NCBI RefSeq assembly: GCF_009601765.2
Contig: NZ_CP045699.1
Coordinates: forward strand, 2,232,001-2,296,000
DNA from: Vibrio algicola
GTDB lineage: Bacteria > Pseudomonadota > Gammaproteobacteria > Enterobacterales > Vibrionaceae
DNA: 64,000 nt
Direction of reading: 5' to 3'
Positions 14,183 to 14,245 of this stretch are shown here, piece after piece (the stretch's first letter is position 1; each line of letters begins with the position of its first letter). A program made the translations under genes and the position numbers. A model generated the notes under the pieces. The model worked only from the letters and a program-made list of their open reading frames with translations, ran no database searches and was not told where the DNA came from.

Positions 14183-14245
14183 TTAAAAATCAGTCCAATC
14201 CAACATTGGAGCGACGCTGAATCTTTGTAATGGGTAATTTTTCAT
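14183..14245 (-). pseudogene. dusA: 5' fragment of dusA, cut off by element insertion
   Basis: On the minus strand an ATG at 14245 opens a frame reading MKNYPLQR then [11 protein letters not shown], followed by Phe and a stop at 14183-14185. [11 protein letters not shown] is the conserved N-terminus of tRNA-dihydrouridine synthase A, which continues RHCRYF in the family. The match stops at about 14189, where AT-rich accessory sequence begins. The remaining dusA coding region is not on this side, so the gene was split by integration, and the far junction (left of the window) presumably supplies dusA with a new start. Divergent dusA and zur agrees with the core gene order. In known dusA-integrated elements the target is this same 5' region. 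Confidence 0.88.
14189..14221. other. Right attachment site of the integrated element (inferred)
   Basis: The conserved [11 protein letters not shown] codons of dusA occupy 14189-14221, and homology ends at the left limit. Site-specific integrases of dusA-targeting elements recombine within these codons, so the crossover core should lie here. The exact core cannot be fixed because the other junction is outside the window. Confidence 0.65.

Follow-up and report, generated by a model that had tools for sequence, protein, structure and literature searches.

An integrated, probably mobilizable element of 25.3 kb at the 5′ end of Vibrio algicola dusA

Genomic islands specific for dusA, a gene of tRNA modification, were described by Farrugia 2015 (PMC4482086). 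In the passages of that paper on island structure, the islands target the 5′ end of dusA, encode a tyrosine integrase, supply a dusA start of their own, and are bounded by imperfect direct repeats, a semiconserved attachment sequence of 21 bp; they excise, and they replace the dusA 5′ end. A prtN homologue was present in 60 of the 94 islands, and some islands carried restriction-modification (RM) genes. In the passages of Durand 2021 (PMC8409611) on a Vibrio cholerae dusA element, the element supplies both promoter and start, dusA is expressed from the element, and the PrtN homologue RdfN is required for excision; the elements of that paper are also noted to have attP between int and rdfN. The same source describes IEVpaBan1b (= GIVpaBan1b), a dusA island with two integrases, a MobA-like relaxase of type MOBP1, MobC, a type I RM system, and an RdfN homologue. 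It further describes SGI1-like dusA IMEs such as IMEVchUSA3, which have an RdfN homologue, re-express dusA from the element, are mobilized by a helper, and use MpsA/MpsB, traG/traN, and sgaC under AcaCD control. Tailless prophages of marine Vibrio integrate at dusA, rescue the gene, and carry defence genes as accessory cargo, according to the parts of PMC11630473 on these phages. The term dusA is absent from the main text of PMC13230959.

The V. algicola element shares with the islands of Farrugia 2015 the target, the imperfect repeats, the element-supplied dusA start, the tyrosine integrase, the prtN homologue, and RM cargo, and differs from them in its relaxase/MobC module and in its own cargo. 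The insertion interrupts the conserved 5′ part of the dusA coding sequence, an integrase of the family stands beside the rebuilt dusA, and a PrtN/RdfN homologue, common but not universal in dusA elements, is present. The likeness to IEVpaBan1b (dusA site, MobA-like relaxase, MobC, type I RM, RdfN homologue) was drawn from the description in one passage of PMC8409611, and the relaxase of the present element is placed by PF03432 only. An RdfN homologue, re-expression of dusA, and, by inference, helper mobilization are shared with the SGI1-like IMEs. Family scans of 16 element proteins, taken from the larger ORFs, named none of MpsA/MpsB, traG/traN, and SgaC, and on these scans an SGI1-like IME is not favoured. 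The tailless prophages have the integration site, dusA rescue, and defence cargo in common with the element, but they are phages, while the element bears a relaxase. A prophage was rejected because relaxase and MobC were present and Pfam named no phage structural family among the 16 proteins, which points to a probably mobilizable island. Both dusA islands with RdfN and one that combines a MOBP1 relaxase with MobC and type I RM were described before, in the relevant passages of PMC8409611, and the finding is an ordinary one for the dusA family.

The two ends of the element

The window, which is the whole stretch of 64,000 nucleotides analysed, corresponds to C1:2232001-2296000 of genome G000. 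On its minus strand, positions 14245-14183 form an ATG-to-TAA frame of 20 codons plus a stop beside zur, the native dusA start truncated by the insertion. A preliminary description had placed a dusA start cut at its conserved motif at exactly these coordinates, upstream of zur, and this was confirmed. The gene start in G041, where dusA adjoins zur, was compared with the stub, with 28 residues translated by eye. The cut lies inside the known dusA attachment core, and the 81-bp junction was matched only once in the genome at E ≤ 0.001. The intergenic region at 14246-14400 (minus strand) resembles by eye the DNA upstream of dusA in G041 and G014; it is the presumed site of the original dusA promoter and now lies upstream of the stub only. 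zur (Fur family, PF01475; named as in the preliminary description) at 14401-14844 on the plus strand is the first chromosomal gene on the right. GC content was 30–39% in 1-kb intervals over 1-14000 and 39–47% in nearly all intervals from 15000 on (one was 35%), in line with the AT-rich accessory genes to the left and core genes to the right described earlier.

The stub had been read as the right end of an element integrated in dusA, with the integrase to the left of the window, and both proposals held when the far end was found. An intact dusA lies at C1:2219957-2220973 (L020:3957-4973, minus strand), 25.3 kb left of the stub. The element is 25.3 kb long, and 11.1 kb of it lies outside the window, to the left. 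With its own dusA start the element provides a new in-frame N-terminus, so that the chromosomal gene is made whole again beside the integrase and the original start is left as a stub of 20 amino acids. The longest DNA exactly common to both junctions is the 11-bp core TCAGTCCAATC, at 14190-14200 in attR and, as an exact copy 25,302 bp leftward, at C1:2220888-2220898 (L020:4888-4898) in attL. This core sits in an imperfect repeat matching at 27 of 40 positions. A copy of 14189-14221 had been predicted at the far end; the att copy is there, but it is imperfect, with no more than 11 bp exact. In this the two ends agree with the imperfect direct repeats, about 21 bp long, of dusA elements. It is virtually certain that 14183-14245 is the attR junction of an element integrated in the 5′ end of dusA.

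A tyrosine integrase of 376 aa is encoded at C1:2221140-2222270, divergent from the intact dusA (PF00589, E 1e-23). It was 43–92% identical to 21 integrases adjoining dusA in other genomes and keeps R231, K256, H318, R321, H344, and Y354, which are invariant among its relatives and which we take to be the catalytic residues. Its predicted structure had a mean pLDDT of 82.9 and a pTM of 0.58, with strands at residues 2-10, 16-26, and 29-38 and a helix at 41-64 ahead of the core-binding region. Against the PDB, the best matches of the model included the Tn1549 integrase (E 1.4e-9), the construct of which begins at residue 82, and, at rank 7, full-length lambda Int (1z1b; E 3.7e-7, 373 alignment columns, TM 0.49, rmsd 13.7). 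In the model, the N-terminal domain looks like an arm-binding domain. Since the superposition on lambda Int was poor overall, this assignment rests mainly on the strand-strand-strand-helix order.

Related elements and uninterrupted dusA loci

When named genome contigs were scanned with the integrase, two loci were found, one in Psychromonas sp. RZ22 (92% identity, residues 1-376) and one in a Glaciecola MAG (87%, residues 1-142). The same element ends were found at dusA in both, and similarity fell at the same core. DusA up to PMLDWTD agreed at 28 of 29 residues with RZ22 and 27 of 29 with Glaciecola; beyond it, 192 of 309 and 176 of 320 alignment columns agreed, respectively. At attR, agreement with RZ22 was 238/251 columns just inside and 123/260 just outside the element; at attL, it was 242/250 inside and 169/252 outside. 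The attR comparison with Glaciecola gave 158/202 inside and 99/211 outside. By eye, the right end of RZ22 runs on into DNA coding for a dusA-like start on the minus strand. RdfN was 100% identical in RZ22 over 95 residues, against a difference of about 38% in the rest of DusA, which suggests recent transfer. In the Glaciecola MAG (L083:18000-19377), the rdfN match covers residues 67-95 only, beside an apparent insertion sequence. The Glaciecola element, whose integrase match ends at residue 142, is apparently decaying.

A dusA match was present in 145 of 148 genomes of the genus. Thirty dusA loci were fetched, and their neighbours were identified by tblastn at 1e-5. An integrase match stood beside dusA in 11 of them (the present locus included). 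Eight had zur and no integrase match (e.g., G041 and G014), so that relatives with dusA next to zur, as envisaged in the preliminary description, do occur. Five had gpi but neither zur nor an integrase match, and six had no integrase, zur, or gpi within about 1.5 kb. At 1e-20, an integrase match was found in 49 of the 148 genomes. It lay beside dusA, by eye, in 45 of these; of the other four, G129 and G105 had it on a different replicon or contig, and G039 and G078 at the start of a contig.

Gene content and mobilization

From the left, the gene order is integrase, Abi_2 protein, a 134-aa protein of unknown function, MobC, relaxase, AAA_13 ATPase, a 237-aa protein, YobI/Tmn-like protein, HsdR, HsdS, HsdM, ArdC-like protein, D12 methyltransferase, two proteins of unknown function, and RdfN. 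The Abi_2 protein matched PADLOC PD-T4-5 (E 6e-51), and the AAA_13 ATPase matched PDC-S06 (E 7.6e-243) and PrrC (E 1.9e-14). The 237-aa protein had no family match; it aligned with proteins of RZ22 and G036 at 31% and 23% identity and is possibly a replication initiator. The window opens within the YobI-ATPase/Tmn-like gene, whose 5′ part occupies 1-1868 on the minus strand and which continues to the left (1221 aa in full, L020:14203-17868; PF20693, E 5.1e-110; PADLOC Tmn, E 5.7e-70). The type I RM cargo follows on the same strand: hsdR, the restriction subunit (1945-5202; PF04313, PF18766, PF11867), hsdS, the specificity subunit (5214-6347; PF01420, PADLOC Specificity_I), and hsdM, the methyltransferase (6331-7908; PF02384, PF12161). 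The ArdC-like gene (8176-9609, plus strand; ArdcN and MPTase-PolyVal) is common to RZ22, with an 85% nucleotide match. Three minus-strand genes come next: a D12-class adenine methyltransferase (9750-11411; PF02086, E 2.7e-15) and two genes of unknown function with no family match, encoding 123 aa (11425-11796) and 318 aa (11860-12816). Similar-looking ORFs of 123 and 320 aa lie at the same places in RZ22.

The gene for the PrtN-like recombination directionality factor homologue, rdfN, lies at 13740-14027 on the plus strand (95 aa from ATG, or 99 aa from TTG at 13728), and the product matched PF11112 (E 4.1e-19, 99-aa form) and a PHROG excisionase (E 2.6e-19). Its leader at 13690-13742 contains by eye two short possible hairpins, one over the start region (GACCC...GGGTC), and RZ22 has exactly the same leader DNA. 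At gathering thresholds, window positions 1-16000 had no Rfam match. A promoter and terminator scan was uninformative, with counts near those of shuffles.

DNA matches to RZ22 covered dusA-integrase-Abi_2 (82%), the mobilization region (65%), the ArdC-like gene (85%), a stretch of 348 columns (72%), and the rdfN end (96%); the rest of the element had no DNA match to RZ22 at 1e-10. Read from the sequence, the RZ22 cargo there is a different type I RM set with HerA ATPase-like and SIR2-like proteins. The defence genes in 1-14,000 had been called cargo of an integrated element, and their position within the element and their replacement by other genes in RZ22 bear this out. The type I RM, Tmn-like, and PrrC-like ATPase genes make up the predicted defence cargo, which is replaceable.

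The relaxase (MobA/VirD2-type) was identified by PF03432 (E 1.7e-12) and MobC by PF05713 (E 1.1e-5). The relaxase had no match at 1e-5 among 72,556 plasmid records, a set from which records very near this genome may be absent. A protein search gave at least 83 proteins at E up to 0.001, the relaxase itself included, with the best 7996 candidates scored. Named relatives among the matches listed were mostly from Vibrio, and also from Photobacterium, Pseudoalteromonas, Colwellia, Shewanella, Psychromonas, and Marinomonas. At 1e-30, the relaxase was matched in 4 of 296 genomes of the family, its own included. In G019 (L125), a 68%-identical relaxase and an ArdC-like gene lie near a gene for a 586-aa protein that looks by eye like a serine recombinase; the mobilization module may therefore travel with other integration systems. 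In G036 (L123), two elements appear by eye to stand in tandem at dusA. The one is small, with integrase, MobC, relaxase, restriction-like genes, and RdfN; the other has its own integrase and a SIR2-like gene.

The whole genome was scanned with two secretion models, TrwB_AAD_bind and CagE_TrbE_VirB, and matches were found on replicon C3 only. C3 (52,774 bp; L161-L163) is plasmid-like and carries CagE_TrbE_VirB, TrbI, T2SSE, and coupling-protein family genes. By its co-residence, C3 is a possible helper for the element. This role is kept at the level of a possibility because the element had no DNA match (E ≤ 0.1) to C3 bases 1-40000 save one 38-bp stretch at 79%. The same bases gave no support for an oriT common to element and C3. 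No oriT was identified in the element, and no nic site was assigned in the intergenic DNA upstream of mobC.

Terminal repeats and alternative explanations

The 36-kb stretch examined contains six copies of GATCCCA, always on the plus strand and always near the two ends (C1:2221045, 2221068, 2221079, 2221099, 2246102, and 2246131). CACCCCA variants stand beside it at C1:2221057 and 2246119, and CACCCCA is also present elsewhere in the stretch. By sequence and resampling, these are five candidate arm sites at the left end and three at the right end, the latter in window coordinates GATCCCA at 14102, CACCCCA at 14119, and GATCCCA at 14131 (14102-14137). The terminal windows (240 and 149 bp) held six GATCCCA against at most 2 in 5000 resampled pairs; when any 7-mer was allowed, 21 of 3000 resampled pairs reached six. 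Resampling was first-order Markov and not an exact dinucleotide shuffle. Other elements have repeats of their own (AGTACCCCT, AGTACGNAT, GACCCCAA) upstream of int, and in many of them similar repeats lie close to the dusA stub.

The two ends were compared in 18 elements: those of 15 genomes (G125 via its rdfN locus) and those of V. algicola, RZ22, and Glaciecola. Fifteen of 30 genomes had been dropped before the count, 13 with no recognisable dusA remnant within 1.5 kb of zur and two with no extracted attL region. With 110-bp left windows, the score of attL against its own attR was 11.64 versus 8.35 permuted (P 5e-5). Between different elements, attL-attR similarity rose with integrase identity (Spearman 0.39, 306 ordered pairs). 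In these windows, with right ends of <70% integrase identity as competitors, the own right end ranked first in 11 of 18; that of Glaciecola ranked 2nd of 16, and six elements (G007, G023, G027, G030, G091, G126) ranked theirs 11th or lower. Over the whole gap, the same strand gave 12.42 versus 8.78 permuted (P 5e-5) and the opposite strand was above permutation by less (9.08 versus 7.86, P 0.00035). The best whole-gap alignment of G007 falls on matching repeats. Five of the 18 elements (G023, G027, G030, G091, G126) showed no two-end repeat match in either form; in these the gap between integrase and dusA is long, and in G023 the contig concerned bears three integrase matches. In two further elements, the match with other clades was equal or better. 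Three control windows placed in the integrase gene gave P 0.37, 0.037, and 0.97, one being slightly above permutation. For 11 hand-chosen representatives, the mean was 13.32 versus 9.10 (P 5e-5), and six ranked first; G125 was 2nd, G054 5th, and G027, G126, and G091 7th to 9th. By this rank, the repeats of G054 are closer to those of other clades than to its own right end. Since the elements are related, the P values of the two-end test serve as a guide only.

Within one element, the repeats at the two ends resemble each other more than they do those of other elements, and they are likely integrase arm sites. A clade-specific arm-site code, with tandem 7–9-bp repeats, often 11–14 bp apart, inside both ends and with letters changing with the integrase (GATCCCA, GACCCCAA, AGTACCCCT, AGTACGNAT, AGTCCCCCT, GTACGCCT), is proposed tentatively, at slightly less than even odds. 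A literature search for dusA and arm-type together found no paper, and a wider search gave nothing specific among the matches listed. The main text of PMC4482086 contains none of "arm-type", "arm", and "inverted repeat", and that of PMC8409611 does not contain "arm-type". Two-end repeats of dusA elements were not found in the literature searched.

A CTG-N10-CAG box, presumably LexA-like, was present in 10 of 31 distinct attL regions (L026, L028, L030, L063, L067, L069, L071, L072, L075, L077), 69–71 bp before int and between int and the element-supplied dusA start, e.g., CTGTATATATATACAG. Through this box, int or dusA may be subject to SOS control. It is absent from the int-dusA gap and from the DNA upstream of rdfN in the present element.

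The terminal repeats could instead be sites for RdfN or for a transcription activator, AcaCD-like and driving int. The left-end repeats do sit upstream of int, and AcaCD sites contain CCC-A-rich stretches in the account of PMC8409611. Against this, the repeats recur beyond rdfN at the far right end, with no element gene after them, and other elements have different repeat letters that are nevertheless often alike at both ends. Recombination directionality factors usually bind one arm. Regulatory or RdfN sites are rather unlikely, and arm sites remain the preferred reading of the repeats.

For the element as a whole, a decayed, immobile remnant at dusA has some precedent. Damaged integrases are common beside dusA: by eye, 12 of the 45 genomes with an integrase there had a broken or partial one (7 short fragments, and 5 split or with a stop codon), and the Glaciecola relative retains integrase and rdfN matches in part only. 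In V. algicola, however, the frames of integrase, relaxase, MobC, and rdfN are open at full length, the six invariant integrase residues are retained, and the identity of RdfN with RZ22 suggests recent transfer; a remnant is improbable. That one genome holds two dusA starts would also fit a chromosomal rearrangement or a duplication of dusA. But the known core lies on both sides of the 25.3 kb between the starts, a dusA-type integrase is the first gene in it, and two other genomes have homologues that end at the same points. Duplication was rejected because these ends are common to three genomes, and an origin of this kind other than integration has a negligible chance.

The junction is best explained as attR of an integrative element that occupies the 5′ end of dusA, is 25.3 kb long, and can probably be mobilized. 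This explanation has a probability of about 85% when the following steps are included. The integrase would bind repeated arm sites inside both ends and recombine attP with the dusA core. RdfN would reverse this reaction; int and rdfN would flank attP in the circular form. The circle would then be nicked by MobC and the relaxase and exported via the type IV secretion system of another element, for example that of the 53-kb C3, and the benefit to the host would be phage defence.

This places the defence genes of the window on a probably mobile, helper-dependent island, and a similar island framework carries different cargo in Psychromonas sp. RZ22. dusA is a dock common to prophages and islands. 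As arm sites, the terminal repeats would form a small, testable recognition code and would help explain how different elements recombine separately at one site. If the arm code is true, co-resident and tandem islands at one gene would be kept from excising each other.
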